A DNA stretch of 64,000 nt from Heterotrichella gracilis (taxonomy: Eukaryota; Sar; Xanthophyceae; Tribonematales; Xanthonemataceae). Below the pieces are notes generated by a model that did no database searches, was not told the DNA's origin, and saw only the letters and a program-made list of their open reading frames with translations. Where the stretch lies: assembly GCA_032358255.1 (NCBI GenBank), contig JAULBX010004221.1, positions 1 to 64,000 on the forward strand, given 5' to 3'. This document shows positions 3,101-23,560 of this stretch, piece by piece; position 1 is the first letter of the stretch, and every line of letters starts with the position of its first letter. The position numbers and the translations under genes are program-made.

Positions 3101-6100
3101 GGTAGGGATGTTTGAGCCATCCATGAAATATAGAAGGGGATCAATAGGGTGTATGTAATGATGATTTCTACCACTGTCTGTCATTGGAACATCACCAGGA
3201 ACGTCACAAACACCTACGCATTTCTCCCTGCAGCATGTAGGTGTCGCTACATCTTGCTGGGGGGAAAGTTGTAGGTGTTTGTGACGTCTCTGGTGATGCC
3301 CCAATGGCAGACAGTGGTAGTCTTCAGTCGGTTACCCAATCCTGTGTGTTTCCAGGATCATCATGTCCGGCTCCCCCATACAGAACAGGCTGCTGGAGCT
3401 GTGGTCCCACTTTGATTTCGTAATCCCAGTAAAATAATTTTGTCACATATTGATTTATTTTATTTACTTATTTCTGCCCCCAGGATCATCATGTCCGGGT
3501 CGCCCATCCAGAACCGGCTGCTGGAGCTGTGGTCCCTCTTTGATTTTGTATTCCCAGGGAAATTGGGCACCCTCCCCGTTTTCCAGACCCAGTTTGCGTT
3601 GCCCATCCAAATCGGGGGGTACGCAAATGCCAGCGCAATGCAGGTAAGGCAGGGAGTATACTACTCGACAAGTAGATCATGCATGTATTGGATGGAGCAC
3701 TATGGTGCACAGTAGCATGCCAATTGGTCGAAACCAACTGCGTCAAGCACGTTGATGCTCATTTGCATGAAAATCATTCACCGCAATCATCCACAATTTG
3801 TGATAAATCCAATTACCCTGACTCCTTGAACCTTTTTTGGCCAGGTGTCCACTGCCTACAAGTGCGCCGTCATCCTGCGTGACCTCATCAGCCCATACCT
3901 GCTCAGGAGGAGGAAGGCGGACGTGGCGGCAAACCTGCCAAAGAAAACGGAGCAGGTGGGTGCGGGGCGGGGGTTTCGCGTTTGAGGTTATGGCTTATAG
4001 GTAGGGTTTGGGGTTAGGGCTTAGAGCAGGGTTAGCGTGCACAGAGGTGCGTACTTACCCTCGTCAACCTTTACCGTTCCAGTTTCCTTTTGCAGGCCAG
4101 CGCTGGTTGAGGAGAATGAAAACAATGGTCTTGCCTAATATCTGAGCCGCCTCGCCATGACCTCCCACGACTTTACCCTTACCCCAACCCCAAACAGTAC
4201 CTTTGCCTTGACTCACCCCTGCCGTAACCCTTGTGTAGGTTTTGTTTTGCAAGCTGACCCCAGACCAGCGCAGCTTGTACGCATCCTACCTGGCATCGGA
4301 GGAGGTGGCGGGGATCCTGGCGGGGGCAAGGAACGCACTGGCGGGGATTGACATTTTGAGAAAGGTGAGCAGGCAAACCGCTGGTGGTTTTGGTTCAAGT
4401 GTGAGTCGGCAGCAGAATGTCACCACGTGTGTCCTGGGGGCTGAAAGGGATTTGTGCGGGGCTTGTTGCAATTGATCGGGTGTATGCAGCATGGAGTGGC
4501 CAGCTTGCTACATATTTTTGTGCATGCAGGCGCATTACATGAAGTCTCATCTTTGTACATGTGGGCGCATTTATGCAATCAGGCCTTGAAAACTACACTC
4601 CTCCCACTCCTCACCCCCCCCTCTCCCACCAGGTATGCAATCATCCCGACCTGCTCCAGCGCGCCACCTGGGAGGGCAGCGGGGACTACGGCCAGGTGGA
4701 GCGCTCCGGCAAGATGGTGGTGCTGGCCAAGGTGCTGCAACACTGGAGGGAGCAGGGGCACAGGTGGGGGGTGATGTTGATTGTGACGTACTGGTGTTCA
4801 GGGATTAGGGTTTGTTGATTGTGCTGGCCAAGGTGCTGCAGCACTGGAGGGAGCAGGGGCACAGGTGGGGGGTGGGGGGCGGGGGGGGATGGTGCGGGAT
4901 GTGTTGGGTTTGTTGATTGTGATGTAGCGGTGCTGCGGCACTGGATAGGGCAGGGACATTGGTGTTGGGAGTGGTGGAATGGGGGAAGAGAGGTTTATCT
5001 TGGGGTGGTGGGGGAGAGTTGTCAGCCAAAATCCAAATAATTGAATAGTGTTTTGTATCTTCATCAACATATTTACACTTGCAGGGCCCTTGTCTTCACC
5101 CAGACGCAGCAAATGCTGGACATTCTGGAGACTTATGCGCGTGCCCAGGGCTACCCCTACCACCGGATGGATGGTTGCACCCCCATCGGCCAGCGATCCC
5201 GTCTGATCGACGATTTCAACAACAACGAAAAGATGTTCCTTTTTCTGCTGACCACGCGCGTGGGGGGCCTGGGCGTGAATTTGACGGGTGCCAATCGGGT
5301 GGTGCTTTATGACCCCGATTGGAACCCTTCCACGGATGTGCAGGTGGGTGGGGTGACAGGGGTTGGATGGGTGTGCTGGTGACTGAACATCATGATTTTC
5401 TTGCAAAATTGATGAAGGTGCATGACATGCTGCTGCGTGGCATTGCATGGGGCTGCATTGGGGATGTAAAATCCCTCAGTGGGATGAGCACACTGACAAA
5501 AACCCCTTGCAAACTTCTTACTCGAATTGGCGCATAGGTTTGCACGTCGGCCAAGATCAAATTTTAGCAGAAACCCTTACTCAGACTTTGCCCTGCAGGC
5601 TCGTGAGCGCGCCTGGCGCATTGGCCAGCTTCGCGAGGTGACCGTGTACCGCCTCATCACCTCAGGCACCATTGAGGAGAAGGTGTACCACAGGCAGATA
5701 TACAAGCACTTCCTCACAGACAAGGTGGGTTCTAGGGTCCTGATAAGCCTGCTCCAATCTCTCATGCAACACTCACCCAACCACCCACTTACACGCACTG
5801 CATGCATGCATGTATGCTGCGAAGCTGAACGCATTTGGGATTCTGAACACCCAAAAACCCTACTGACTACCCTCAAAACCCTTGTGTAGGTTTTGCGTGA
5901 CCCCCGCCAGCGCCGCTTCTTCCAAGCCAGGGACATGCATGACCTCTTTACCCTGGGGGATGAGTATGCGGATGCCTCGGAAACAGCCGCCATTTTTGCT
6001 GGGCTCGGGACTGAGATCGACCACCAGCAAGCAGATGGGGGCGCGCCGGCGTCAAGGGGCGGGGTGGGGGGTGCAGGTGGGTGATGGCGGGGTGGGTGGT

Positions 6101-8578
6101 TGGGGGTGGGATGCTCTTTTGCGGGTGGTGCCCATTATGTTGTATTTATTATCATTTCACATCTTCGTCATTGTTGTTTTGCAATTACGTACGGTCCAGC
6201 AATTCAATGTACAGCAGATGCTCCGTCACTCAAACTCCCATTATCGCTGCCCTCCCAGACACAGATGAACACACAATTTCAACCTAGCCTTCCATGTGCA
6301 GGTCCCAGTCGCACCCCTCGTCGAGTCCGGTCAGAAGCCGGCGTCCCCTCCTCGTCTGGCACCATTCCTCCCCCTGACGACGCCTCTGGGGATGAAGCAC
6401 CTGCAAACGGGGATGGTGGCGACTCGCGCATTCTCAAGGAATTGTTCGAGGGCAACGGTGTGATGGGTGCGATCGATCACAACAAGGTAGAACCCTAAAT
6501 TTTAAACCCTAAACCCTAACCCCGTGGCGCTCTTGGACTGGTGTACCCCAGAACAGCAATCTGGAATGCCCCTCACATTTCTCGAATGTATGACCCCGCA
6601 TGCTAGCCCTCATCACCCACAATTCACCACAACCCATCAAAACTTACCCTTTACAACCAAGCCCTTCATATTGAGACAAGGTACCCTCGCCACCTCGAAC
6701 AGCTACCAAGGATCGATTACCAGCCACATGAGGACTTCTATGCAGCTGGACCACTCATAATGCCCCCTTCTATACATAACACCCCCACCACCTACCACCC
6801 ACTACCCCTTACAGGTGGAGGGCGCCAACGACAGCTCTGGGAGGGGTGTGGAGGCGGAGGCGGCCAGGGTAGCTGCACGGGCTGCAGATGCGCTGCGCAG
6901 GTCTAGGCAGGAGTGCCAGCGGGCGCCTGTCAACACACCCACGTGGACGGGGCGCAGCGGGGCAGCAGGTGGGGTGTGATCCTGTGTGTTTTAGGGTAAT
7001 GTTGGCATGTTGAGGGCTTCTAGAGCGGGTTTGTCAACTTGTGAATGCGTGTATGTTTATAATTGGTTTGGGTTCTTGAGTATGTTTAGGGTTTGTGGAA
7101 ATATCTTGCGCCCAAATTGCTTAAACAGTCACGATCAACCCACGCAGCGGTAGCAGTCACATACTTTTAGTACCACCCCTAAATCTTAAAAACCCTACAC
7201 ACCACCACCAGCACCCACAGCCACCCGTTATAAGTCCCCTTCCCCTTTCCCCACAACAGGCGCCCCACGCTTTGGCGCGCGTGCCAACCCGCTGCTGCGC
7301 ACCACAGCCGCACCCACGGCGGCACCTGGAGGAGGGGGGGGAGTGGGGGCTGCGCGCTTTGGCTCTGGGGTAGTGGCCGGCACCAGTGGGGGGGCAGGTG
7401 GGTGCTGGGGGAGGGGCAGGTGTCTTCACCGTCGTGTTTATTAATTGTATTCAGAAACGCCATATATGGCATTTCGGTGTCAAAGGGTTGATGAATTTAC
7501 ATGTATTTGTAGTGTCCGTGCAACGTATTGCGCATGTACCTTAGTGTTGTTCGCACAAGCATACACATCCCTTCTCCCCATCCCCCCCCTTACCTCACCC
7601 CCGCCATCCACCCCGCAGCCCCCCGCTCCTCCGACCTCCTGGCACACATGCGGGCGCGCGCTGACAGGGCGGCTACCGACGCAGGGGAAGGGGATACACA
7701 GGAGGTAATGGGGAGGGGGGGGGTATGGGGTGGAAAAGGGGGCCCGGGGAGCGGGGAGGAGTGGGGTGGAATGGAATGGCATGGCATGGGAATGGAACGG
7801 AATGGGAAGGGACGAGAATGGCATGGGAACTGAATGGAACATAATGGAATGAGGTGGGATTGGAGCGCCTCGAGGACGTGAAAAGGGTGGTGGGGTGGAG
7901 TAGAATGGTGTGGAGGCGCCCACTGCTGCCTGGTAAGTGCTGCCATCATCCTTAAGGGATGGTCCTTCTATTTCCAACAGGTAAATTGTGGTGGCAGTAT
8001 GTCAACTCACAGGGTTCCCACGTGATGGTCAGCTCAACCCTTAAAATAGGCCCTGGTCATGTTCTCCCCAATTCAACCTGTGCCGTCACCTCTTCCAGGT
8101 GGTGGACGCGTCAGGCATGATGGCCAAGATCGTTTCCTTCATTGAGTCCAAGGGGGGGAGCGCTAAGTCAAACGACCTGGTGGCGCACTTCCAAGAAGAG
8201 GTAGGGGTGGAGCTAGGGTTTGGCTAGGGTTTGGGTTCCAAAGGCGGTATGTGCCAAATCAAACTCTCTGTGTCCCTGTGAAGAGGAGGCAGGGTGTGGG
8301 CAAGGGTTCTTGCTTGGGGTTGTCTGTATCACCTGGTGGCCGTTTCCTTTGAGGAGGGTTTTGGGTTGAGGGTTTATGGTTTCTGGGTTTCCTCAGCTGC
8401 GGGGTGTATACCATTCCCCCGATGGTTGCAACAAGGTCTTGTTCCCCTTACGCAGGTGGGTGACCGCCACATGGCGCTGTTCAAGCAGGTGTTGCGCCAG
8501 GTGGCGGCGCTGCAGCGCGCGCAAGGGGGGGGCAAGGAGTGGGTACTCGTGGGGGAGTTCAGCAACGGGGGGCGATAG
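103..8578 (+). CDS. ERCC6: CSB/ERCC6-type SNF2 family DNA-dependent ATPase (transcription-coupled repair), 5' end unresolved
   Basis: CSB/Rad26 proteins are nuclear SNF2 translocases that remodel stalled RNA polymerase II and start transcription-coupled excision repair. About 18 exons can be joined in frame. The conserved pre-ATPase motif [13 protein letters not shown] is read across the splice 294/573, followed by an acidic stretch (1488-1720). ATPase motifs: [11 protein letters not shown] (1894-2082), [12 protein letters not shown] (2342-2517), [10 protein letters not shown] (2773-2961), [18 protein letters not shown] (3484-3643), LLRRRKADV (3845-3955), VCNHPDLL (4633-4763), then [17 protein letters not shown] (5085-5343) and RAWRIGQ (5599-5724). 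The C-terminal part (5890-8578) has the CSB-like [11 protein letters not shown] and [10 protein letters not shown] elements and a short final exon ending in TAG at 8576-8578. The reading frame opens after a stop at 100-102; the true start is not visible and may lie upstream. The exons around 640-1260 are not resolved. Family assignment is very secure. Confidence 0.93.
3168..3320. repeat. Long imperfect foldback (hairpin) inside a CSB intron
   Basis: Positions 3168-3217 and 3271-3320 are inverted copies of each other over about 50 bp with roughly 10% mismatches. The intervening 53 bp also pair partly (around 3218-3240 with 3250-3270), so nearly the whole 153 bp can fold back. It lies between the DEGH exon and the SGSP exon. 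It could be a MITE-like element or a small-RNA precursor; neither is shown. Confidence 0.75.
3356..3428 (+). repeat. Duplicated copy of the 5' part of the CSB 'SGSPIQN' exon
   Basis: This segment repeats positions 3484-3557, the start of the true exon, about 128 bp upstream. It is preceded by its own pyrimidine-AG acceptor (3354-3355). Its reading frame still encodes [17 protein letters not shown], and several differences fall at third codon positions. The copy breaks off soon after and has no downstream half. It is probably an intronic partial exon duplication; use as an alternative exon would truncate the ATPase. Confidence 0.8.
4714..4975 (+). repeat. Tandem repeat of about 100 bp containing copies of a CSB exon 3' end
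   Basis: The exon end at about 4714-4763 with its donor (ctggccaaggtgctgcaaca...) recurs at about 4819-4866 almost unchanged, and again, much decayed, at about 4918-4967. The period is near 100 bp. The first extra copy keeps the exon end followed by a GT. These are intronic echoes of an exon-intron border. Confidence 0.8.
6491..6523. repeat. CCCTAAA telomere-like motif cluster in a CSB intron
   Basis: Four CCCTAA-type motifs lie just after the donor at 6487. Similar clusters occur at 11962-12012, 13552-13582, 19471-19506 and 20528-20548. They are short and interstitial; they do not mark a chromosome end. Confidence 0.8.
7766..7852. repeat. GGAAT-type simple repeat
   Basis: A degenerate array of GGAATGG/GGCATGG pentamer-like units lies in the CSB intron that follows the exon ending at 7704. 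Confidence 0.7.
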
Positions 8579-9929
8579 CAGACGGGGGGGTGGGGGAGGG
8601 GGGAGAGGAGTGGGTATCATGGCCACTCCTCCATCAAAAGTAGGAGTTGTGCAGCGGTAGAAGGGGGGGAAGTGAGAGGGGAAAATGAACATGCTTGTTC
8701 CGCATTGGTAGGGGGTGGGGTAGGTGGTAGGAGGAGAGGGTGGCACCACTACTGGTGTGATTGGTGTGTGTGTGGCACCGGGTCACCCACCGTGGGGAAG
8801 GGTAAAAGACAAGTCACGCGTCCCGCATGCGTCGGGACATGACTGCTAAATGCGCAAGCAATGGTCTTCAGTCAATGGGGTAGAAACCACAAGTCGGGGG
8901 GGGCCGCACATGGCGCCACATTGGTGCACATTGCACTACGTGACAATCATTCAATGGTGACAGTGACTCAATGGTTTAGCCCGGCCCGGGTTTTTTCAAC
9001 TTCAAGTTGTTACAATTTATGCCACATTCAATTTGAGGTTTTTGCTAGCACGAGCGACTCCAGTAGGTTCCGAAAACTTTGCCCGGAAACGGTTTTTTAA
9101 TATTAAAATATTCGAGGGGGTCTCGCAAATGTGCAACATTTCCGGAATGTAGAGGGAGCAGTATTAGGTCCCGTGACCCAACGCACCCATAACTTCAGCT
9201 TGTCCGACCGCAACACCCAAGTCAATAAATAGCGAACGACTTTCCCGCGCGCGCACTGCTGCCTCTGCCCTGAGGTTTATCCCCCTTGTGAAAACAAACG
9301 GGGAAGAACCACAGGCGGGCAATTAAAATACAATATTTTAATGTGCACGAAGAGGCAGTAGTAGGGGAAAAATTTATTGTCAGTGACTGTAATCTGAAAG
9401 CCCTTCCAAGACCTGGCAAATGCCGTCAAACCTTGGCCACAACCACGCTGTGATGGGGTTTTGGCAAGAGTGACTCTGTGACTCCGCCAGCGGCTGCTTA
9501 TAATCTGATTGATGACGTTGTGGGTCCAGGATGGTCCCGCTTCACGGCGTCGCCAGACAGAGCCCACCTCACCTGAGGTGAAAAGCCCTGGCTGTCTTGT
9601 CAGCGCACTGTCAGCAGCCAGCGGCAGTGCATAGTAATAACAAAACTCCGCCAAGTTACAGACGTTACGAGCTGAACATAGTTTCAATTTTATGAATCCA
9701 AAAAACAGAATCGCGCGCAGAGCTATGACTCATAGCTTCAAGCTTCAGCAAGCTAGCGATTAGAATAAGTTAAAGCAACAACTTGGGTAGCCTCGCAATG
9801 GGCTACTTCAACATGTAGACAACGCAAGGCAAATCATTCCGCTCTACTAGTGGGGGGGCACCACTACATGAAAGTTCCAGGGTACTGGTTATTTACCCCA
9901 CAATAGGGTTCTGCTGGGACCGGGGCTGT
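8579..9929. other. Intergenic region between two convergent genes
   Basis: No gene is recognised here. The region is the shared 3' side of CSB (+) and the CHRD gene (-). A TTACA at 9656-9660 (TGTAA on the minus strand, the usual green-algal polyadenylation signal) lies about 270 nt past the CHRD stop; the motif is short enough to occur by chance. Confidence 0.5.
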
Positions 9930-11087
9930 CTACAGCTCCCCCCTGATCTCCCCCGCAGGGTAGGTGGTGGTGTGCAGGTTCACGTACGCCCGCTTCTCCC
10001 GCAGCGCCAGGGCAAAGGTCTGCATGCTGGTCACACCCACGGCGCCCCCGGTGAAGATGGGTGCGGTGATGTTCTTCTTGATCTTGATGTACTCCCAGCT
10101 CTGGGGGGGGGAGGAGGGCGCGCCGGGGGCGTTTGATGGGTACAGCCAGATGGCAACGGGGCCGTTGTTGCCCAGGGACACGCCGCTCTGCATGGGAGGG
10201 GGGTTAGGGTTAGCTATGGTTGAGGGAGAAGGGTTTGAGGGTTACGTGCCGATGAGGGGGGGCTTGTTGGTCAGAAGGGATTAGGATTACTAGGGTTCAG
10301 GGTTTCAGGGTTTGGGGAAGTACAGCCAGATGGCCACGGGCCCGGTGGTGCCAAGGGTGCCAGCTCTGCCGGGGAGCGGATTTGGGGTTAGTTAGGGTTC
10401 AGGGAGCAGGATTTGAGGGTAAATGCAGCTGACGGGGGGTCCTTCCCGCCTACCTGTTCAAAACCCTAACCTTGAAACCCTCTGCTGCCAACAGCTACGT
10501 TGCTGGTTAGCAATCTGGTATATGCAGACAGAGCATGCGCACCATGTTTCTACTGATGGCGCTGCACCTCGCAGTGCAAGGTTGTGGTACGGCTCTGTTG
10601 TCAGCATATGCTAGTGGGTTAGGGTTTAGGGGTGAAGTGGTTAGGGTTGACCATGGAGCGGTTGCAGAACTTATACCAGCTAGCTAGGTGAGCGCCAACG
10701 ACCCTTTGCAACTAGGTCAACTCAGCAACTGGTACACATAGTGGGCTGGGTTTTGTCAGGGTTTTGTTGTCCCCACGTACGTACCGAGACAACGTGGATG
10801 TGAGCCATGGTCCACAGGTTGAGGTTGTTGACCACGAACTCGTACGCGATCCAGTTGCTCTCCAGGTCGTACGTCAGTTTGAAGGTGCCGTTGGCCACGC
10901 TGGCGGGACCAGTGAGCTTGGTAGTGTAGCTCTTCTTGACGGGGAGGGGGCTGGGTGGTGGTGGTGGGTGGGGTGGGCGGGGGGGTGGGCTGGGGGACTT
11001 CAGCGGCTTGGCGGCGGCCACGGGGGACAGCACGGCTGCCAGAAGCAGGAGGGCGAGGGCGGGGAGCATGGCGGCGGCGCGTGCCAT
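9930..11087 (-). CDS. Secreted CHRD-domain protein with Ser/Pro-rich linker (about 186 aa)
   Basis: Two exons join in phase 0: 10785-11087 and 9930-10187. The protein starts with MARAAAMLPALALLLLAAV, a clear signal peptide, followed by a linker rich in SPPP and PPPP units of the kind that is hydroxyproline-glycosylated in algal walls. A single CHRD domain follows (about residues 52-186), first found in chordin and common in bacterial and algal extracellular proteins. It shows the typical MAHIHVVS... start and the ending AYVNLHTTTYPAGEIRGEL. ATG at 11085-11087 was chosen because it precedes the signal peptide; an internal Met six codons later would also work. Its substrate or partner is unknown; a wall or matrix role is inferred from the signal peptide and linker only. 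The single intron carries an echo of the second exon. Confidence 0.85.
10321..10372 (-). repeat. Intronic echo of the start of CHRD exon 2
   Basis: The stretch from 10321 repeats the 5' part of exon 2 (10141-10187, beginning tacagccagatggcaacggg on the plus strand) with substitutions. It lies about 180 bp upstream in the transcript, within the intron 10188-10784. Confidence 0.7.
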
Positions 11088-12274
11088 CGTGGGTGGCTTC
11101 TGCGGGCGGTGGATGGGGGTGAGATTCTTGAGGTTCAAAACGTGGCATCTGTACCGATGTGGCCTGTACCATGTGGCCTGTACTTCAGATACCGATCCTT
11201 GAGCAAATAGTGGTTTGGCAAAATAAACGCGCCTCAAACGAGCTGGTGCATTACTTAAGTAGAGGTCGGGTCCCTGACGGGCGGTTTGCGCGAGTGCGCT
11301 GCAGTGCAATGCGAGTTAGCTGAACCGGTCGGACATGAATATGAGTCACCTCGTCGCTGCTTGGTTATGGTGCGGGGTGCATTGACGTCTTGAACAGCGC
11401 TGCAACGAAGGTTCAAACCAAATAACAAATAAAAGGCGACAATGCTCCACGTCTGCGGACCTGCGGTTGCGAGCCTATCCAAAAGGCCACTGGGCTAGAT
11501 AGGATAAGAATATGCCCCACCGCATGTGTGCCAGTAGCTACCACCCTTGCACTGCCGTCACACACACAACACCCGCTCCCACCCTATTCAAGCGAGTATC
11601 TAGACCTATTACACCTGGGGTGTAAATTTGCAAGTGGTGGACGCAAGGAGGAAAAAAGTCCAACACAGGTATCTGTATTGTGCGTACCTGATTGGCTGGT
11701 ACTGCTCGATGCTGTGATGGCAAACACACACGAGCAAGCCTCCTCGTGATACCGTACGGGCTGTCTTGTGGTGCACACAAGCGGAGCAGTGAGACGAGCA
11801 CACCGGGTTGAAGATATGCTGCAAGCTTTGAAGAGGTGACTGTATCATATGCGCTGTCTGCAATGCAGTCCTGTTTTGACTGATGAAAAGGCCTGTTCGA
11901 CCATCTGTGGTTGCAAATTGCCACCTCATTATGAAGACACGTCATCCCAAACCCAAAAATTGAACCCTAAACCCTACCCTCGAAACCAAGAAGCAGGGTA
12001 ACCCTAAACCCCAATGGTTCCTTTGTGTGTGTGTGTGCAGGTGCTATACATCAATGTAATGGGTGGCCGTGTGCGGTGCGTGCTTAGGCATTGCATTTAA
12101 CACACTCCCAGTGGACACCACAACAACACCTGCAAAGCTTCAAAGTCAATTGGCCCAATATGATTACAAAAAAATAGAGACAGGCATCATCGCGGGGGGC
12201 AATCTCCTACACTACAGGCATTGCGTCATCTGCTTGTGGGTTGCAGCAGTGCCCTGTGCATGTGACCAGCACCT
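11088..12274. other. Upstream region of the CHRD gene; no gene seen
   Basis: The promoter of the minus-strand CHRD gene must lie just above 11087, but no convincing element is visible. A CCCTAAA-like cluster occurs at 11962-12012. Open frames here look random. Confidence 0.4.
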
Positions 12275-12967
12275 GTGATAACATGGTGCACTCGAGTGCA
12301 TCAACATCCTGAACTGCACCGCCTCACTTGGCACCCACCCCCAAAAATGTTCAGTGAACCCCCACATGTAAGGCGTCAGCTACTGTTCTTTCCCTACAGG
12401 TATACCTGCTGCTACTGTCTGTCTGTGAATACCAACTGCACAGGTCGCTACCCAAATTATTATGCCACAATACGCACCCCCATCTGCACATGTGGCCCCC
12501 ATGTGAACCAGCCACAGCCACACCTCACCTACGCCGTACATTGCTGCGGCATCACACCACTTCCTATTTATGGAGGGCCCAAGTTCCCCGGTCGCAAATT
12601 GGAAAACAACGCATGCATCACAAATACAATCCGCATACCCAACCACCGTGTTGCCTACTTACTGAGTCAGAGGTTTCAACCAGTACTAGCCCTTTTCAAC
12701 CTGAGCGGCAACACAGTCAGTGCAACGTTTACCATGCCACAGGCCCACCCGCCATCCTGCCCTACAACCACTCCTCCCACCCGGTGCGTGGACATGACCT
12801 CCCCTCCTCACGCCCCCTTCCTGTTAACCCCCTGGCCCCCACCGCTGCCCCGCACACCCGTCCCCGGCCGCGCACCCCCCCCACCCCCCACCGCACGCCC
12901 AACAAAACCCCCACCAGCCGGACTCCCCTGGGGCATCCCCCCACCACACCCGGCCTGGGCACCATAG
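12275..12967 (+). CDS. Doubtful proline-rich open frame (230 codons)
   Basis: An open frame with a Cys- and Tyr-containing N-terminal half and a C-terminal half dominated by PPP, TPP and PAP runs. It loosely recalls algal wall proteins with hydroxyproline-rich tails, but I recognise no domain and see no signal peptide at its start. The Pro-rich end lies antisense to the Gly-rich last exon of the kinase gene (12808-13195) and may be only its shadow. The first half (about 12400-12760) is not explained by that. Treat as hypothetical. Confidence 0.15.
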   Translation: MITWCTRVHQHPELHRLTWHPPPKMFSEPPHVRRQLLFFPYRYTCCYCLSVNTNCTGRYPNYYATIRTPICTCGPHVNQPQPHLTYAVHCCGITPLPIYGGPKFPGRKLENNACITNTIRIPNHRVAYLLSQRFQPVLALFNLSGNTVSATFTMPQAHPPSCPTTTPPTRCVDMTSPPHAPFLLTPWPPPLPRTPVPGRAPPPPPTARPTKPPPAGLPWGIPPPHPAWAP

Positions 12968-15900
12968 GTTGCATCCGCATACAAGTGGATGGGCTGCAGG
13001 GACTTGGATTTGACGGGAAAGGAGGGCGGCCTGGAAGATGACGTGAAGCTGGCGCTGGATTGGTGCACCGCGCCGCTGGGCAGCCGGGCGTTTTCCGCTG
13101 GCGCCGCTGACATGGGCCGGGATGCCGATGCGGGGGAGGTCCCGCCCGCTACCGCTGCACCGCCTGCGGCGCCCCGCCCGGGCGCCTTTTTTGCCCTGAA
13201 AGATGGCGAAACGAGACAATGATCAAACAAACATGCAGCCTGTTCTTGCACAAGTGAGTTGCAAACAGAAAGACATTGCTCTCTTTCCCCACCGATTCCC
13301 CCACCTGAGTGATGGCGAAAAGGCGCCGCCAAAGTGCATGGGCTTGGCGGGGGAGGCGCTGGATTCATCGCCAGGGCCAGCCAGAACCACCCCAGCGGGA
13401 AACGCTGGCGGCGCATGCCGCTCCTGCACACACTTAACCTCAAAAACCTAAGAAAACATGGCAGGAAAGCTGTAAAATTAGAAGCAAACAAGGCTTTTGC
13501 CTGGCTGCCTGTCCACAAACAGAATGCGAAGAGGATTGCGTCACCACCTTGTTTAGGGTTTAGGACTTAGGGTTTAGGGTTCACTGTGGTGCGTACCTGT
13601 GGATGACCAAACTTCACACTCTTCTTGGCGCGGGCAGCAGCGGTGGATGCCATTACACCCCCCTTGCTTGCGGCGGATTGCGGGCGGGAGGAATGGCCCC
13701 ACCCCCCTTCGCGGCCCCCAGATGTGCTTGATGCACCCCCAGCCGCAGCCGCAGCCGCAGCCGCAGCCCCAGCCGGATCCAGGTGCATGGGGCTGAAGGC
13801 CTCCACCAGCGCCTGCTGTTCCTGGTGTCGTGATAGAAAAACAATGGTTTAATTATAAACCAAGCAAAGAAATACATAAATTGTTAGCTGAATGCCTCCA
13901 CCAGTGCATTTGATATTGGTACGATACTTTTATGGGGGGAAATGTTCCTTAATCCATAGGCCACTGGATCATTGAATGGATTACGTGGGAGTGGATAAAT
14001 GCAATTCAAATACATAAAACAAATATACTTCAACAACACAAACCACCATGTAATATACAGGGTACACAGCCTGACCAGGCGCTGTGGTAAAAAGGAAGCT
14101 GGCAGAGAGAAGCCATTGTCCACCTGCCCCCCCACTATTGCCCCTATTATTATTACCTGATACGGCGACCCCTGCCCAGCCCCCAGCACAGCATCGCCGC
14201 CACCCCTTCCATGTTGGTGATGCGCGTTGTCACCCCCGCGCATCCCCACCCCCCCTTGCTCCCCCCCAGACGCAAAAAGGCTCCTGCGGGCTGGTTGGCC
14301 CACAGAGGGGGTGGCGTGATATCCCCCCGCGTCTGCCAGCGGAAGTTGGGGGGCCACCGCGGGGGATCCACTGGGTCCCAGCAGCAGCTGGTGGTGGTCC
14401 TCTGGGGATGGCTGTGCGCTCTCGACGTGCAGCCGGGATTTGCCGCGCGAGGGCGTCTTCAGCTGGCGCGCCTGGGTGAAAACTCAAACAATCACGTACG
14501 TGATGAGCAATGATGCAGGTGAGAGGGGCATTTGGTGCGCAAGGGAGTAATGAGCTTGCGGGCAATAGACAAAAACGACAAGCAAATTGTTACCACAATG
14601 AGAATCTTCTTGGAAAACAAATTTCTCCACAGAATAGGACAACAGCTAGCAATGATATGACTTTGACAATCAGATACTATTGGTGTGCAGCCTCAACAGA
14701 TGCATTGCAGAGGCCGATGCTTGAAAACAGGGGTTCCTGTCCGTTCCGTCTCCCACCTTTTCGGCGGATGGCATCATGAGTTGGCGCACAGCAGCACCCG
14801 CCTGCTGCAACAAACCGCTGAACCCCGACTGCTGATGGTGCTGGGGGGATTCCTCAAACACCTCCTCACCCTCCCCCTGGTCCCCGCACATGTCCTCATC
14901 CCCGTTGCCATCCCCGCTGTGCACCTGCATAGGCAGGGGCGCCACCGTCTGCATCCACCCCCGTTATACGCTTTTAGGGTTTGGGGTTTGCTTGTGACAT
15001 GCCATCACGCAACCAGGTGCTTTCTATTGCATCGCTCTCCTCTGGGCCACGCATGCAGTTACAGGCACAAAGCCCCCAACAGTCACTCACCCACCACGCG
15101 CACATGTTGAGGCGGGGTCGCCGCCAAAATGTACATTATCTACTACAAATTGTACCATGCTCCCCCTGGGTGCGCACGCAGTCAAAAAGAAACAATTATC
15201 CCAACAGCCAGGCATACACCACCTAATTGGATTTACCTGTCCAGGCGGCGACTCCCCCTCTTCCGCCTGCATGTCCTCCCCATCTCCCTCCCCCTCCCCT
15301 GCCTCCCCCCCATGGTACGCGGGGATGCCCCACGGCAAGGAGCCCTGACGATCCCCAGAGGTCATGTGCTGCAGTCCCGGGGATGGTGAATAGCTGGATG
15401 GCTGGGCAGAGATGTCTGCTTTGTCCAATGGTCCTGCACATCCCGCAAACTGGGCTTGGCCGCAGCAGCAGGACGTGTACGCTGCGGCATGCGGCGTAGG
15501 GTTTTGTGTGCAGGGTCTAGGGAATGCGGTTTGAAGTGTAGGGGTTAGGCTTGTCTGCAGCAAGCAGGAGGTGAACGCTGCGGCATGCACGGTAGGGTTT
15601 TGATGTGTAGGGTTTAGGGTATCATAGCGTAGAATCTAGGGCAAAGGACTTTCAAGCACAGTCTTTTAACTTCTGAACAAGTTGTGCAGGTGGGCAGCTG
15701 GAAAAGGGTTTTTAAAGGGTTCAGGTTCATGGCCTCAGGGTTCTGCGACTGGGTTTGTGGTGTGGTAGCCCTGCACATCGCAACCCACCCACTCCCCCCC
15801 ACCCCCCCACCTCCCACCCCCCCCACCACCCACCTTTGGCCAGTCCATACACCGGCTGGACCCCATCCACCGCAGTCTTGACCTTTTTCGCGGGTGCGGG

Positions 15901-18807
15901 CCGCGCCAGCGTCACATACGCGGTGGCGCCATGCACCACCCCACCCGCAGCCACCCCCCCCTCCCCTTCTGCCCCCTGGTGGCGCACAAACCCCTCCCCC
16001 CGGTTGGTGTTGCGCATGGAGGGGCGGTGGGCGTGGTCAGGGGAGCCCCCACCGGTGGTTTGGCCTGTCAGGCCGTGGGTGTTGATGGCGGGTGTGGAGG
16101 GGCGGCGGGCGTGGAGGACGATCCATGGGTGCCGCAGGAGGTCCTTCATGCTGGGGCGCTTGCGGGCCGCCTGCATGGGCAGTATGTAATGATTTGCATT
16201 CATATTCAAGGCTTCATGTGCCAATTTTGGTGATTCTGGGGCGCTCAATGGCCGCCTGAACATTTACATACAGGTGGGTTAGGTTTTAGGGTTTTCAGTG
16301 ATCCATGGGGCGGAGGAGGTCCTTGATGCTGGGGCGCTTGCGGGCCGCCTGCATGGCCAAATTTTAAATCTTTTAACTCCTATAGAAGGTCTTGATGTGC
16401 CACTTTTGCGCTTATCGTGTTGCTGAGGCACTTGAGGGCCACCGGCGCAGGCAACGGCGTATCTGGACATTTGCATCACAGGTTGGTTAGGTTTTAGGGT
16501 TTTCAATGATCCATGGGTGGCGCAGCAGGTCATTGATGCCGGGGCGCTTGCAGACCGCCTGCACACGCTTGAGAAATCCATTTCCGTGCACCTTGTCGAC
16601 CGTTGTAAAGAATGGTCATGTTTGGGCGCTTGTGAGTCACTCACATTGCTACCCACTCATATTGGAAAGCCATCGGTGACACGTTGACCTGTGGTCACCT
16701 TGGTTACCAGTTTTGTGCACATCCCATCCCCACATCCAGCCCCGCCCCGCCCCAGGCCACCCCACACCACCCACCATCACCACCACCACCAGACGCCACC
16801 CCACCTTTGCCAGCGCCGTCGTCACAAAGTCGCAGCTGGCCTCGGTGAGCCAAGGGGGAAAACTGGGTCGCTTGTGCATGATGTGGTCGTAGGTCTCCTC
16901 ACGCGTCTCGTGCTCAAAGGGGGGGTGGCCAACAGTGAGCTCGTATGCCAGCACCCCACAGGCCCAGGTGTCAACGCTGGCGGTGTAGCCCAGAAGGATC
17001 TTGTCCTGCAAGTGGGGGTGGAATTTAGAGTCCCAAGTTTGGAAGGTTATTTTTTTTTTGGGTTTTTAGCGATCAGGGTTTAGGGACTAGGATGCAGGTG
17101 TAGGGTTTGGGCGGGGCCACGGTTAGCGTGTATGCCAGCACCCCACAGGCCCATGTGTCCACACTGGCAGTGTAACCGAGAAGGATTTTGTCCTGCATTT
17201 TAGGGTGAAAATGCATTTTGAGGTCTGCCACTTGAGGATTTCTAGGGTTTTGGCACTCAAATTTCAGGGTTATTATACATTTAGGACAGCCCATGGCATA
17301 TGCCAGGGCGCCGTCCCTCATTAAGTGGAACAGCCTGACAGCGGCGACCTTGACATGAAAACAGTTAGGTTTTTAAACCTGGACCTTAAACCCTAGACAG
17401 TTCCCCTTGCCTTGTTTTCCTCCGGGAAGCTCTTCTCTGGGCACACCAGCACCTCGGGCGCCATGTAATCCAGGGTCCCCGCGCGCGTCACTGGGCGCTC
17501 CTCATTCACATTGATGGACAGGCCAAAATCAGCAATCTTGACGATTTTGTCGGCGGTCAGCAGGATATTCTCGGGCTTGATGTCCCGGTGGATGATCCCC
17601 AGGGTGTGGAGGTAGGCCACTGCGGAGAGGAAGGGGGCGAGGATGTCCCGGCACACGCGCCGCTCCTTGAACTGGCCCCCGCACCGCTTCAGCTCCTCGT
17701 ACAAATCCCCCCCTGCATCAGATAATTAGCTACATGATTACATACCCTGGTGACCATGCACGGTGTAAGCTTCTGCTGGGCCAGGTGAGGTTGTGCTATG
17801 GTAGCTGGTATTCCAATCAATATTCAGGTGATCAGGAAGTCCTGGCACATGCGCCGCTTCAGCTAATCGTACAAATTCCCCTTGCGCAAAGTGAACAATT
17901 GCGGGGGCGTTCCCTTCTGACAAGAATTCCACAGCCTCAATTTTGCACCTTGATCATGAAGGGGTGCAGGTTATCACACGAGCACAAGCGCTGTTTACTT
18001 TACTTGAGTTTTACTAATTACATGTATCTTCATTTATTTGAGTTCAGTACCTGCCGCGTACTCCTGCACCAGGTACACGTTGCTCTCGTCCTCAAATGCC
18101 GCATACAGGTCGATGATGTTCTCGTGGTCAAGTGCGCTGTGCAGCCGGATCTCCCGGGCAACCTGAGCCAGGGAAACCAAGAATGACTGTTTCAAAGCTT
18201 CCTACCTAGTTCCCCTCTGCAACCATGATGGGGTGAGGCATACCCAAACATGCTGATCAGGCTTCAAAGCTGGAATGCACATTCTTAATGGCAACAAGAC
18301 CGCATAAGACAGTGTCAACCTCCGCATCGATGCGTTGGAATCGGTTCAATTGGACTCAGGAATATCTGTATGCAGCAGCTATGAATGGCTTCCTTGTTCA
18401 GTTTGATAGCCTGCGCTTGAGGTAGTACTTGAGTGCCACCTGTTTAGGGTTCATGATTAAGAATTCATGGTTTAATTGGGTTCAGGGTGGTGGGTTTTAC
18501 CTGGAACCAGTTGAGGTTTGACAGCTTGTGCTTACGGCAGTACTCTGCTGCCACCCTATTAGGGTTTAGGGTTCACCAAACGGTAGACATGAGCTTGCAG
18601 CTTGCACCAATACTCCACTGCCACCTGCTTGGTATTCATTGTTGACGGTTTCCAGAACTCACCTGGTACCAGTTGAGGTTTGACAGCTTGCGCTTGCGGT
18701 AGTACTTGAGCGCCACCTTGGCGCCCGACAGCTTGCAGGATGCACAGTACAGCACAGAGGCCTTGCCCCGGTACAGCTGCTTGTGCAGCTCGAAATCGCT
18801 GACTGAC
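12808..18807 (-). CDS. CALK-like (aurora-like) Ser/Thr protein kinase with long low-complexity C-terminal region; first exon unresolved
   Basis: Eleven exons join in frame: 18663-18807, 18051-18162, 17411-17712, 16805-17005, 15834-16170, 15237-15415 (possibly from 15481), 14757-14948, 14157-14471, 13597-13821, 13305-13423 and 12808-13195. Kinase landmarks in order: LYRGKAS loop, VALKYY lysine, [60 protein letters not shown] and [12 protein letters not shown]. This order and wording match CALK, the Chlamydomonas aurora-like kinase involved in flagellar length and disassembly; the cellular role here is inferred from that. After the kinase domain come over 450 residues of Ser/Gly/Pro/Ala-rich sequence, acidic around 14757-15415, with a poly-Ala run. 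The intron after 17411 begins with GC (AAG|GCAAGG). The reading starts within the glycine-loop exon; an N-terminal exon must lie above 18807. Confidence 0.9.
13552..13582. repeat. TTTAGGG cluster next to a kinase donor site
   Basis: Three TTTAGGG-like motifs lie in the intron directly after the donor at 13595-13596. In the transcript they read CCCTAAA. Confidence 0.8.
13738..13772. repeat. GCC-type trinucleotide run encoding poly-Ala
   Basis: About nine repeats of ccgcag/gcagcc on the plus strand encode an alanine run in the kinase exon 13597-13821. Such a run is prone to length variation. Confidence 0.85.
13886..13912 (-). repeat. Short intronic echo of the start of kinase exon 13597-13821
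   Basis: gctgaatgcctccaccagtg at 13889 copies gctgaaggcctccaccagcg (about 13793-13812) in the adjacent intron, with two mismatches over 20 bases. Confidence 0.55.
15461..15620. repeat. Direct tandem duplication upstream of kinase exon 15237-15415
   Basis: A unit of about 60 bp at 15461-15522 recurs at 15557-15619 (shared core gctgcggcatgc, then gtagggtttt). Each unit contains an AG acceptor followed by the same open frame, so the nearer one may be the real exon start (15481) and the farther one its echo. Confidence 0.65.
16304..16562 (-). repeat. Two or more intronic echoes of the start of kinase exon 15834-16170
   Basis: The acceptor and exon start encoding [17 protein letters not shown] (16120-16173) are copied at about 16304-16356 and 16508-16562, with a more decayed trace near 16424-16460. 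The first copy keeps the acceptor and most of the frame. All lie in the preceding intron. Confidence 0.8.
17112..17200 (-). repeat. Intronic echo of the start of kinase exon 16805-17005
   Basis: The exon start encoding [21 protein letters not shown] (16945-17005) is repeated at about 17135-17196, including the tgcag acceptor. The frame still reads [21 protein letters not shown] and then diverges. Confidence 0.85.
18404..18632 (-). repeat. Three intronic echoes of the 3' end of the kinase ATP-lysine exon
   Basis: The end of exon 18663-18807 (frame ...[18 protein letters not shown]) is echoed at about 18585-18632, 18499-18556 and 18404-18443. The middle copy keeps the donor and an open frame reading [14 protein letters not shown], but the position matching the lysine of VALK reads Glu. 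The copies lie in the following intron. Confidence 0.8.
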
Positions 18808-20821
18808 CTGCAGCAAACACATGCACAGGGTGAAGTACCACCAACTTTGGCACAATACGCCTAGGTTCGCAGCCATATCCTAACCCCTGTAGAAGGGTTC
18901 GCCAGCCTCCTGCCTTTAGGGGAGGCTATGCTTGCGTGCAGGGTTGCAGTCGCTGACTAGCCTGCACCGTGCAGGATGCAAGAAGGCATGCTGGGGTCCT
19001 CGCGTGGCGTGGCTTACATGCACTGTGGAGCTGCTGGATGCGCAGGGTCCACCAGGGTCGGTTCCAGAGCATGGCTGTTTAGGGTTCAGGGTCTAGGTTT
19101 GCGAGGTTGACACAGATGCATACGCGGGCCAGGGCAAGGCTGGCTGGCAAAAGGCTTGAGCGGGGGCAAACTGCTGATCTGGATTTCTGGAATTATGCAG
19201 CTGGCTAACTGCAGCAATATGGGTGTATGCAAGGATGAAGTTCAAATTCTCAGGCGCGCACCAGGGCCTGTTGCGCAGCATGGCTGTTGGGCAGGAGCGG
19301 TTGACGCAGATGGTGCGTGGTGCGCATGGCCCCCTCTGCAGCTCAAACTCCATGACTGGTAGGGCCACATCGGTGTCATCGGGTGCTGCCATTTACCAGC
19401 CTGCGCACAGAAAGGTGGGGCAGGGTTTCAGCAATCGGTTTAGGGTTTACCTTTGGCGCCAGGTTGAGGCAGGGTTTAGGGTTAGGGTTTAGGGGTAGGG
19501 TTTAGACTAGGCTCGTTCCAAGATCCCTTGACCTTGATCTCAAACTTTTGCGTGTTTATGCAAGCCTGCCTGCAGGGACTGGTTGGCAGTATGCTGTACG
19601 CAGTGCAAGGGTGCCTGCTCACTGGTTGGGCTACTGGAGGGCATGTATGTGACAATCGAGTTTGAATCCCCGATATGGTGCATGTGGCAGCTGACTAGGA
19701 GTGGGAACCTGCAAAGACAGAGGATGCAAAGGGGTGCAGCTGCAGGGTTGTGACAGTGGGTGCTTAGAGCTGCAGTAAGTTCTTATTGGTGCGTGTGCAT
19801 GCATCTGTTGGCTCCATACAGTGGTGTGCACACTGACTGCTGTTGTGGACTACAGGTACATCAAAAGCAGTAGAAGTGAACCCTATGCTAGTCGTCTGGG
19901 TAATGCAGTGATAAAGCCTTGCGAGTATCCTATCCTCCTATAAGAATGGATGAAAGGTACAACACCTGGATGATATCGTTGGATGGGAGCTGCAAACGGG
20001 AGGCAGCTACGCACCGATATGCAGTGTGAGGAGTTTTACAGCAGGGGAGAATACCTGGAGATTGACAGGCATACGAGAAGGGATCCAGCGCGCGTCCAAA
20101 GGTTCTGCAGCGGTCCTGGAACCAACCGCTGGCTTGGAATCGTGCGCAGGGAACCCTAACCTCGTCGCAATTGCGACGTCAAGTCAAAAGGTAGGAAACG
20201 AAGGGAGGGCATATAGACTCTGAAACAACTGCTCTGAAGAAGAATGGAAAAAAGGACCGCGCTCGGGTATCTGCTCACGCTCTCTCTATCACCTATGTCG
20301 ATAATCCCTAGCACACATGTGGTGCTGCACATGCATGCCGTGTCCTGCATTCGTAGGGTGAACCTCAACGGAGTCACCCCCTCGAGTTGCAACACCAGCA
20401 ACCTGGTATGCCTGCTTAGAACCTGTTAACGTCAGCAATGTCAAGTTTATGACTAGGCAAAGAATGCTGAGGACTCGAAGTGACCTCCCCGCCACGAAGA
20501 CATTATTATACCCCTTGCCACACACATCCTAAACCCTACCCTAAACCTTTCGTGTGAGTTATCGTGTGATAGACCCTACACCCATTATCTGAGACTAAAG
20601 GATTGCATGAGCCAGTGCTGCAGTAACTGCCAGTCTATCCTGCAAATACATGAAGCACCTGTGCTGCCATAAATCGAAAAATAAACCAGCAAGAAAAACC
20701 AAAAGAGCGAAATCTTGCCCATCATAACCCAACAAGAAAAGGCGCACCCCCACAGTTCTTGTCCTGCGGCCTGGTTTGCACTCCCCTGCATACATGCTGT
20801 AATCCCCCTGTATGTGTTGCT
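18808..20821. other. Unresolved 5' part of the kinase gene and intergenic sequence
   Basis: The missing N-terminal kinase exon should lie here. The frame at 19268-19392 (MAAPDDTDVALPVMEFELQR...) and a stretch at about 19640-19706 between a good acceptor and donor look coding on the minus strand, but their phases do not fit the next exon. A partial echo of the former lies near 19031-19075. A TTTAGGG cluster occurs at 19471-19506. Nothing else is recognised up to the sirtuin stop. Confidence 0.4.
19471..19506. repeat. TTTAGGG telomere-like cluster
   Basis: Four to five TTTAGGG/TTAGGG units just above the kinase gene, interstitial. Confidence 0.8.
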
Positions 20822-23560
20822 CTACAGCGCAGACTGCTTTGCCGCATCGCCTGACACCAGGCGTTCAAGGTCATCCTCCCACCCCAGCAGTGCGCAGAGC
20901 TCCTCCACACCTGCGTAGACACAAACGTCCACCGCTTACTGTGCGCTTAAAAGCAGCCTGACGCTAATTGATGGGGGATCAGCCTTTTCAATGAGGTACT
21001 GACGTCTGCGTTCTTGCCGCACTTGCCGATAATCCAGGGTTTAGGGTTTAGGTACGTCTAGAGTTTAGCAGACGATGTCGTATGGGAATGACGGGGTGCC
21101 CATGAGATTCAGGCAAGCGAGTGGGCACCTTCACTTTCCCTGATGACTCAAAGAGGCACAGCATCAACCGCGTTGTGCACATGCAGCAACGCACCTTTGT
21201 CACAGTCCCCCAGATGCAGCGTATCGCGCCCGTTCCCAAACTCAAATCCGCCACCGCCCCCCATTCCCCTCCGCTTCTCCCCTGCCCTCTCCATGTTGAG
21301 CAGCAGCCGAGGCACATCGCTCCCCACATTCTCTGCACGAGTGGCATTGCAAGAGATATTGAGCGCATGTTCAACAGGGCATTTAACGGATATCAAGATC
21401 CAGTGTCTGCACAAGTGGAATAGGCGTGCGGCAGCAGTCCACACAATTCGCATGCACTCCACAGGTTCATACCACCAAACATGACACCCAGTTGCAAGTC
21501 AGCCTCACCACGTCTGATTATACCCATCAGTAATGCTGGAATGCATGTGATTAGCTCATGACTTTCCTGATTGCTTCCTTCCCCTGGGGCCCATGTGTAA
21601 TTGCTATGCCTCCTTATGCATGTCTTTGGCGTCTGTTTTTTTCCTAATTTACTTTTTCCTATTCTCCCCTTATTTGATTATGCTTGGTCATACCTATCAA
21701 TGATGCGAATGGCTGCACCACCAGAGATGTGCCCATCACAATGAGGAGGTCACATTTGGGGAAATCCACGGGCACCCCCTCCCAGAACCTCTCGGGCAGG
21801 TTCTCTCCAAAGAACACAATGGCAGGTTTGACCAGGCCCTTGCATTTCCTGCATCGGCAGATTGGGTCGTCCCCACCCAGGATGGCCTGCTTGACATACT
21901 CGGTGGTGTATGGCTCCTTGCACTTGATGCAGTGCGCAGCTGCGTGGGTGGAAGCAATGGATTGGTTGCATGCACTCATTTGCTCATGGCTCAGCCTGGA
22001 TTTGCCTGCCACTTGCATGCTCTCATATGCCCATATGCATGGCTCAGCCCCGAATTGTTCGCCATTTGCAAGGGGCATGAGGTAAGCATTGAGATGGTGC
22101 AAGCAGAGCAAGTCACTAGACTTGCCACTGATAAATGCCTACAGCCAATGTTGGCGTATGCATCGACCAGTGTTGGCCTCAGGCAGCAGCCCCGCTTTGT
22201 GCTCCAGTTTCTTCAGCATTATACATCAGGGGCTCCTGGCTAGGATTCCGATTCATGGTTTTCCTTACTCACAGTCAAAGTTCCCGTGCGCTGCGATGAT
22301 GGCCTCATGCGGCAGCCCCGCTTGGTGCTCCAGCGAGTCTATGTTCTGTGTGTAGCACCGCAGCAGCAGGCCCTTGTCATGCAGCAGCTTCATGAAGTAG
22401 TGGGTGCGCGTGGGCTTGAAGTTGCCTGGGAAAAGCTCCTGTGGGGGCAAATACAGCTGTCAGAATCCCCACACCATCTAGTCCGAGCTACCGCCTACGT
22501 AAAGAAAGTGAGCAGTGCATTGCTCATGATCCCAGCAATCGTCACAAGAGTCTTTGGCACAAAACGCATTCCTGAGTGGCATACCGCACCTTCTGAGCAA
22601 CGCTGGTGGCAAGACTACTTTTTAGGGTTCAAAGTTTAGGGTTAAGAACTAGGGTAACCTGGCACTGCTGCTGGAGTGCGCGTTGAACAAAAGCTATCCT
22701 GGACACAGCCGCTACTGGACCCCAGGGACACACCTTGGCTAGGGAGAAGAACGGCAGTGGGTTTCGCCGGAAGTACCCAATCTCAAACACAGCCTCTGGG
22801 GTGGGCAGCTTGTACTTCTGTAGATTTGAGTACAACCCAGTCCCTGGCGTCCGAAAGTCTGGAATGCCCGCGTTCACGCTGATGCCAGCCCCACACATGC
22901 ATAAAATGGACTTCACCCGGCCAGACTTTATGTGCGCTGCAATACCCTTCAGGTCACAGGTTGACAGCGTTACTCCTGTTTCTTTCTGCAAGGTGAAGGG
23001 CAGCGGACCCTGAGGAGATGGTTGTGGGCAGTGCAGGCACACCCTGTGGTCAGGTGCAGGGCAGGACAGCACAGGTTGTTGAGTGGGTGGCTGGGTGCGG
23101 GGCAAGATAGGAAAATCAGGAGCTGAAACTCACCTCTGTGACCAGGTTCAGAGACGCATTGAATATCTCAACGAGCTCCTCGAACTCATCATCCTGCGGT
23201 GAAGGTTATATCTTAAGCAGCTATTGGGCCTGGGCTTCTAACCCGACACACATAGTTAACAATGCATGCATGTTGCAATGCATGCATACCAATGCATGCA
23301 TATAACCCAAACGTACGGAAGACTCTGCAGCGGTGTCGTGGTCCTCCTCCTTTTCAAGCACAGCATCGTCTGACTTCGAAACTGATGTGGGCGAAGCATC
23401 TCTTGGTGTAGAATCGCTAGCAGCCGGCTCGTCGGCCACTGCTGTAGTGGGCAGGAATGTTGTGAGCACCATGCAATAGGTGGTAAGTTACGACTGGTAC
23501 CAGTAAGTCTTGGCTCAGATACATACCAGCAGCGCCTTGTATTTGGTTGCCGCCCACCAT
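20822..23560 (-). CDS. Class I sirtuin (SIR2 family NAD-dependent protein deacylase), about 377 aa
   Basis: Sirtuins remove acyl groups from lysines of histones and other proteins using NAD+. Eight exons join with consistent phases: 23527-23560, 23317-23441, 23134-23193, 22734-23009, 22273-22438, 21694-21939, 21195-21332 and 20822-20910 (TAG at 20822-20824). Landmarks: [28 protein letters not shown], the catalytic His in AAHGNFD, a zinc module of two Cys pairs (CIKC and CRKC), GENLPERFW and [14 protein letters not shown]. The C-terminus has PRLLLN and the LGDCDKG strand. The motif set resembles the SIRT2/SIRT3/Hst2 branch. The N-terminus (about 70 residues) is acidic and Ser-rich, without a clear targeting signal; compartment cannot be told. 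ATG at 23558-23560 gives an open start; no better one is seen. Confidence 0.95.
22166..22205 (-). repeat. Intronic echo of the end of sirtuin exon 5
   Basis: About 35 bp (gcagccccgctttgtgctcc on the plus strand) copy positions 22300-22335 of exon 22273-22438 with few changes, in the following intron. Confidence 0.7.
23261..23303. repeat. ATGCATGC short repeat
   Basis: Three aatgcatgcat units in the sirtuin intron after exon 2. They are self-complementary and may form small hairpins. Confidence 0.8.

Follow-up and report, generated by a model that had tools for sequence, protein, structure and literature searches.

Decayed copies of exon edges in the adjoining introns of Heterotrichella gracilis, with telomere repeats at the joints

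Introns of the xanthophyte Heterotrichella gracilis carry decayed copies of the exon edges that adjoin them. The window covers the opening 64,000 nucleotides of contig C44 (138 kb) in an assembly of 68.5 Mb and 903 contigs, and an initial annotation of it had noted such copies, termed exon echoes, in predicted genes for CSB, CHRD, a kinase and a sirtuin. In eight spans of the assembly that include the window, a copy of the adjoining exon edge was found inside 43 of 300 introns (score at least 40), also beyond the genes originally noted, and in none of the controls (0/13,026 comparisons pooled), which confirms the observation. Telomere repeats at the joints between the copies are absent from the initial annotation and are new here. 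The echoes are rather likely to be short local tandem duplications made by error-prone break repair, with telomere machinery acting at the ends and the spare copy being spliced out.

Frequency, shape and decay of the copies

In addition to the window, 193 kb from ten contigs of the same assembly were analysed. Two of these stretches, C1:20001-40000 and C100:20001-40000, have a GC content of 0.36 and long open frames and look bacterial by eye (C1 Bacteroidota-like); they are probably bacterial contigs within the assembly and were excluded from the counts. The main sample consists of the remaining eight spans including the window (217 kb, 0.3% of the assembly). Genes were predicted from sequence only, by a splice-aware hidden Markov gene finder seeded with the CSB exons and the frames of a polyketide synthase (PKS) region and then retrained; it returned 31 genes with 352 exons and 321 introns, of which 300 introns with an exon on both sides were kept after removal of predicted exons shorter than 25 nt. 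The gene finder errs, for example in calling part of a CSB echo (3356-3400) an exon. Six echo-bearing predictions are backed by Pfam: SNF2/helicase C, CHRD, a kinase joined to SIR2 (probably two genes fused by the gene finder), pyruvate kinase, a second kinase and an APH-family protein.

For each intron, the 80 nt of either flanking exon that border it were aligned to its sequence, and a score of at least 40 was counted as an echo. Donor and acceptor edges are about equally represented (25 and 21 in the 300 introns). The check proposed in the initial annotation, alignment of introns to their flanking exons compared with shuffled pairs, yields a clear excess on the 217-kb sample: none of 11,418 shuffled exon-intron pairs reached the threshold (maximum 38, 99th percentile 24). 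The copies are direct and local, as reverse-complemented edges gave no echoes against introns (0/600) and neither did edges of the same gene taken from two to three introns away (0/1,008). A second set, drawn from loci around a telomere word on contig C2 (58 kb, 74 introns) and hence selected for telomere words, has echoes in 16 of its 74 introns, against 0/1,352 shuffled and 0/148 reverse-complemented comparisons.

Echoes are unevenly distributed. On C44 they occupy 8 of 41 introns between 0 and 24 kb and 0 of 78 between 24 and 84 kb, the PKS region; elsewhere the counts are 4/27 on C5, 0/18 on C200, 12/35 on C300, 1/22 on C400, 4/28 on C600, 9/16 on C800 and 5/35 on C20. The absence of echoes from the PKS, as first described, therefore holds for all 78 of its introns, and the identity of the PKS is backed by Pfam, two long open frames of the region matching ketoacyl synthase, ACP and dehydratase domains. 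The PKS prediction (window 32323-64000, continuing to 84000) is multi-exon, spans tens of kb and has telomere-poor introns. The densest stretch is C300:20001-40000, with 39 direct repeat pairs within 1 kb in its 20 kb and 19 telomere heptads per kb. The GC content of exon edges is 0.538 in the PKS region and about 0.625 in echo-rich regions, and was dropped as a cause of echoes because edges with an echo (0.628, n=48) and without one (0.625, n=360) are alike.

An assembly artefact is unlikely as the source of the echoes, because 104 of 106 repeat pairs are less than 95% identical and the bacterial-looking stretches of the same assembly hold only 1 and 0 pairs per 20 kb. The scarcity of pairs at or above 95% identity (2/106) might itself mean that identical repeats have been collapsed, but divergence that follows codon position and the lack of echoes in the PKS region of the same contig leave hardly any probability to this explanation.

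Within 2 kb, the eight spans contain 108 direct pairs, five of them among leucine-rich-repeat-like exons, and their spacing has two peaks, at 90-109 and 170-209 bp. Homology extends beyond the splice site above chance in 13 of 24 donor echoes and 10 of 20 acceptor echoes; in roughly half of the echoes, then, the duplicated unit includes the splice site and the intron beyond it, so that the intron is older than the duplication there. In one kinase intron and one CSB intron the homology covers the whole length of the unit, in three copies each. These features bear out the proposal of frequent local tandem duplication across exon-intron borders. The further statement that splice sites are often retained agrees with inspection by eye, which found the donor GT in 18 of 24 donor echoes and the acceptor AG in 13 of 20 acceptor echoes. 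Decoy splice sites are in this sense physically present in the echoes, as candidates read from the sequence.

Mismatch between echo and parent is 0.074, 0.078 and 0.166 at the first, second and third codon positions of the parent (47 echo edges, with 140-nt edges), all 37 indels in echoes are frameshifting, and stop codons number 4 in 703. The codon and indel pattern is that of an unconstrained copy set against a constrained coding parent. In 24 pairs with both halves aligned, divergence per site is 0.098 in the exon part and 0.165 in the intron part, with 0.016 and 0.038 gaps per site, respectively. The echoes had also been proposed as a source of alternative exons, whether mutually exclusive or otherwise, in which the reading frame of the copy would be conserved; given the neutral codon pattern and the 37 of 37 frameshifting indels, this is not supported and was rejected. 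More broadly, selection is very unlikely to maintain the echoes as functional exons, spare or alternative, or as regulated decoy splice sites: many do retain GT or AG by eye, and the gene finder called both copies exon in 16 of 77 repeat clusters, but codon-position rates of about 1:1:2.2 fit a dead copy beside a constrained parent, and all indels are frameshifting. At one place, C400:20001-40000 (span positions 12753-13081), a candidate intron lies between two copies of a duplicated exon stretch and was possibly made by the duplication.

Telomere repeats, break repair and exon-intron borders

The 14-mer CCCTAAACCCTAAA occurs 5,629 times in the assembly, compared with 5 occurrences of the reversed word. 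In predicted introns the telomere word AAACCCTA has a density of 1,598 per Mb (138 occurrences in 86,381 bases), the figure given for Arabidopsis introns being 150.7 per Mb (PMC3022908). Of the intron bases in duplicated copies, 10.7% belong to telomere heptads; the share is 9.3% between copies, 2.0% in duplication-free introns and about 0.3% for exon bases that lie outside copies. The 40 nt beside the joint contain 387 heptad bases, where 300 random placements in the same introns give a mean of 158 and a maximum of 257; the second set gives 229 against a mean of 128 and a maximum of 196. On the joint side heptads account for 20.4% of bases, as opposed to 5.4% on the far side and 5.7% in the rest, and the gene-sense orientation CCCTAAA prevails at the joint (334 bases versus 53). 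In both sets, then, telomere repeats are at the repair joint, where telomere-repeat insertion would leave them. Approached from the telomere side, direct repeats flank 46 of 147 interstitial telomeric clusters (null 4/1,381), and inverted ones flank none of the 147. Those with duplicated flanks are 41 of the 107 clusters near an exon edge (within 150 nt), 4 of 21 deep in introns, 1 of 13 in intergenic DNA and 0 of 6 in other places.

The geometry of copy, spacer and copy seen in many cases would also suit introners, mobile intron-making elements with long target duplications. Among the 37 spacers of at least 30 nt, however, the matches between spacers (21, of which 20 were listed) and elsewhere in the sample (11 spacers) are short, and those inspected are telomere-like; in this sample a mobile spacer element is unsupported and introners are extremely improbable.

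For the origin of the echoes in tandem duplication, the following sequence of events is proposed. Staggered DNA breaks would be resolved by error-prone repair into short local tandem duplications, mostly spaced 60-250 bp apart. The break ends would be handled by telomere machinery, telomerase adding TTTAGGG before fill-in and end joining seal the joint; the union of fill-in, telomere insertion and duplication in one pathway is our inference from published work. Paired nicks have reportedly been described as a source of duplications in plants by Schiml in 2016. Of the two copies, one forms the predicted exon edge and its twin sits in the intron next to it; splicing would keep the exon-side copy, which would make the duplication tolerable, while duplications internal to exons would be purged by selection. 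The spare copy decays without coding constraint, and copies of exon edges stay readable for longer than pure intron duplications, which helps to explain why exon echoes stand out.

Several observations weigh against this account. Heptads are abundant in the intron flank of the parent itself as well (14.8%, compared with 20.4% at joints), and some of the telomere DNA may therefore predate the duplication and have lain inside the unit. After correction for intron length, telomere words do not predict which introns bear echoes (the observed coefficient is reached in 257 of 500 permutations) and were rejected as a predictor. The copies are often non-adjacent, and the intron half of the unit resembles its twin above the 95th percentile of the null in only 24 of 51 duplications, whereas simulation from exon-part divergence predicts more (0.30-0.89, depending on age); inserted filler, faster decay of introns or another route could be responsible. 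Inverted repeats occur too: 3 pairs are separated and 14 form hairpins, of which 9 lie in predicted introns and 5 in intergenic DNA and none touches a predicted exon. Introns thus hold inverted duplications or small elements as well, and direct orientation is the rule for exon-edge copies only, not for all local repeats. Finally, the over-representation of exon edges is not fully explained if the visibility of duplications inside introns is 0.2 or more.

This over-representation is large in the raw counts. The clusters in duplication-rich contigs comprise 57 at edges, 4 confined to introns, 2 intergenic, 1 confined to an exon and 10 mixed between gene and intergenic DNA, whereas 60,000 units placed uniformly yield 17,528 tolerated edge, 15,668 intron-only, 12,474 intergenic and 6,657 exon-only cases, with the rest in other classes (57:4:2 versus 17.5:15.7:12.5). 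Scaled to 57 edge clusters, uniform placement would produce about 22 exon-only clusters where 1 is observed. The second set has 18 edge, 0 intron-only, 1 intergenic and 5 mixed clusters, the six Pfam-supported predictions have an edge to intron-only ratio of 23:1, and simulation from exon-part divergence gives a ratio of 0.6-0.9 against about 14 observed. In addition, with 200-nt edges, the exon part measures 40-59 nt in 23 of 48 echo edges. Such figures suggest, as a tentative alternative, that exon-intron borders are true hotspots of breakage or template switching (through paused polymerase, R-loops or RNA-guided repair), one end falling some 50 nt inside the exon.

The exon-part lengths are biased, however, since echoes were found through their exon part and the shortest are lost, and the GC content of edges with and without an echo is alike. 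As an internal control on visibility, the score needed for detection is reached by the intron half of only 11 of the 51 edge duplications, so the edge bias may largely be a matter of visibility, and the strong hotspot claim based on the first simulations was withdrawn. At a visibility of 0.2 the edge excess is modest (P 0.0026 and 0.035; 0.089 in the Pfam-supported predictions), and at 0.1 it is gone (P 0.21 and 0.24); visibility may account for much of the edge bias, perhaps all of it. In favour of a hotspot, hairpins of similar divergence (68-81% identity) can still be recognised both in introns and between genes, where paired sequence thus does not always vanish; these hairpins may be small mobile elements of other origin. 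A more far-reaching extension of duplicative break repair is doubtful: that its telomerase-assisted form, acting while genes are transcribed, favours exon-intron borders and is the chief source of intron sequence, introns being layered scars of healed breaks in which each layer is a decayed exon edge with telomere repeats.

Copies in the window

Comparison of the window with itself (E up to 0.001, copies within 3 kb) recovers the repeats of the initial annotation at or near their places, except the one at 13886, and reveals no further local direct repeats between 1 and 24 kb. The copies in CSB, CHRD, the sirtuin and most of the kinase sites are strong direct repeats, the one at 13886 is weak, and the copy near 18600 (18592-18626, inside the noted interval 18404-18632) is not significant, with a score of 23. 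Their parent exons sit in Pfam-supported predictions (SNF2/helicase, CHRD, protein kinase, SIR2).

Table 1. Exon edges, their copies and the joints between copies in the window
Feature	Position	Strand	Evidence
CSB/SNF2 intron echo, acceptor edge (CAG + ~80 nt of exon)	3352..3435	+	89% to 3480-3563
CSB exon 3484-3643, parent edge	3480..3563	+	SNF2-related domain in protein
CSB exon 4633-4763, parent donor edge	4720..4763	+	self-match and gene model
CSB donor-edge echo	4821..4864	+	98% to parent edge 4720-4763; donor GT kept
CSB third copy of 4720 unit, decayed	4921..4985	+	second period of 4720-4886/4821-4985 match
CHRD exon 9933-10187, parent acceptor edge	10140..10187	-	self-match; CHRD by Pfam
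CHRD joint between copies, telomere-like	10263..10319	-	
CHRD echo and intron flank	10320..10439	-	78% to 10140-10262; twin intron tails score 63
Weak candidate echo, 21 nt	13887..13907	-	score 32 (shuffled maximum 38, 99th percentile 24)
Exon 15237-15481, edge echo	15548..15622	-	84% to 15453-15525 with intron flank; exon part alone scores 33
Kinase exon 15834-16170, parent acceptor edge	16120..16170	-	self-match and gene model
Kinase echo B, acceptor edge	16300..16356	-	within 16120-16353/16300-16563 repeat
Kinase echo C, acceptor edge	16508..16563	-	87.5% to 16120-16175
Kinase exon 16805-17005, echo of acceptor edge	17109..17210	-	82% to 16921-17023
Kinase exon 17447-17712, echo of acceptor edge	~17842..17881	-	score 45; absent from initial annotation
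Kinase exon 18663-18807, donor-edge echo 1	18401..18441	-	90% to 18661-18718
Kinase exon 18663-18807, donor-edge echo 2	18499..18544	-	91%; donor GT kept; telomere-like DNA at joint
Kinase exon 18663-18807, parent donor edge	18661..18718	-	self-match and gene model
Sirtuin echo (exon bases 24-61 nt from donor)	22171..22207	-	89% to 22297-22333; gap 24
SIR2 exon 22273-22438, parent stretch	22297..22333	-	self-match; SIR2 by Pfam

The CSB match 4720-4886/4821-4985 (76%) is longer than its unit, which implies three copies, at 4720, 4821 and about 4921; the kinase intron repeat 16120-16353/16300-16563 likewise has three, at 16120, 16300 and 16508. Immediately upstream of its echo, the CSB intron contains a hairpin (3168-3240/3247-3320, arms of about 73 nt, 80% matching). 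A second hairpin occupies 31367-31545, and introns and intergenic DNA elsewhere contain a further 13 hairpins or separated inverted pairs. The remaining self-matches of the window are among exons at 28-30 kb (28380-30180), which are similar to one another, look leucine-rich-repeat-like by eye and were left intergenic by the gene finder.

Relation to known systems

Tandem duplication is a leading yet sparsely documented route of intron growth and gain, and the action of telomerase at internal breaks has mostly been inferred from rare mammalian loci. With a readable exon-edge copy in about one in seven tested introns and telomere words at the joints, H. gracilis would allow both processes to be dated and tested at many loci. 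Among the matches listed from the open-licence papers searched, no report of exon-edge copies with telomere repeats at their joints in introns was found.

In the RdRp gene of potato, tandem duplication over an intron-exon boundary gave a new intron (PMC4974935). As in that account, the 3′ part of an intron and the 5′ part of the next exon are duplicated together and the acceptor is copied; unlike the single intron-creating event recounted there, H. gracilis has many decaying copies within introns, of donor and acceptor edges alike, with telomere repeats at the joints. In the accounts available, the gain of introns through tandem duplication shares with the echoes a duplication inside genes and the splicing out of one copy, but exonic AGGT duplications make new introns, whereas in about half of the echoes the copied unit includes an older splice site.

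Fill-in by CST-Pol alpha at the 3′ overhangs of break ends leads to small tandem duplications (PMC8355091). The echoes resemble these in being short direct duplications, here putatively formed at break ends by the telomere fill-in complex; they differ in that the available text of that source describes no insertion of telomere repeats, and many units in H. gracilis exceed 100 bp. Mammalian telomeric repeats have been inserted at double-strand breaks, with duplication of the flanks at 6 of 130 rodent and 4 of 25 primate loci in the figures available (PMC2246262). H. gracilis likewise appears to have telomere repeats at repaired breaks, and the share of clusters with duplicated flanks is 46 of 147, of which 41 are near an exon edge.

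The telo boxes of Arabidopsis and rice have been proposed to originate from telomerase acting on free 3′ ends left by transcription, followed by error-prone repair (PMC3022908). According to that source telo boxes are enriched in 5′ untranslated regions, whereas in H. gracilis the introns are about ten times denser in telomere words than those of Arabidopsis, and the words stand at the joints of duplications.

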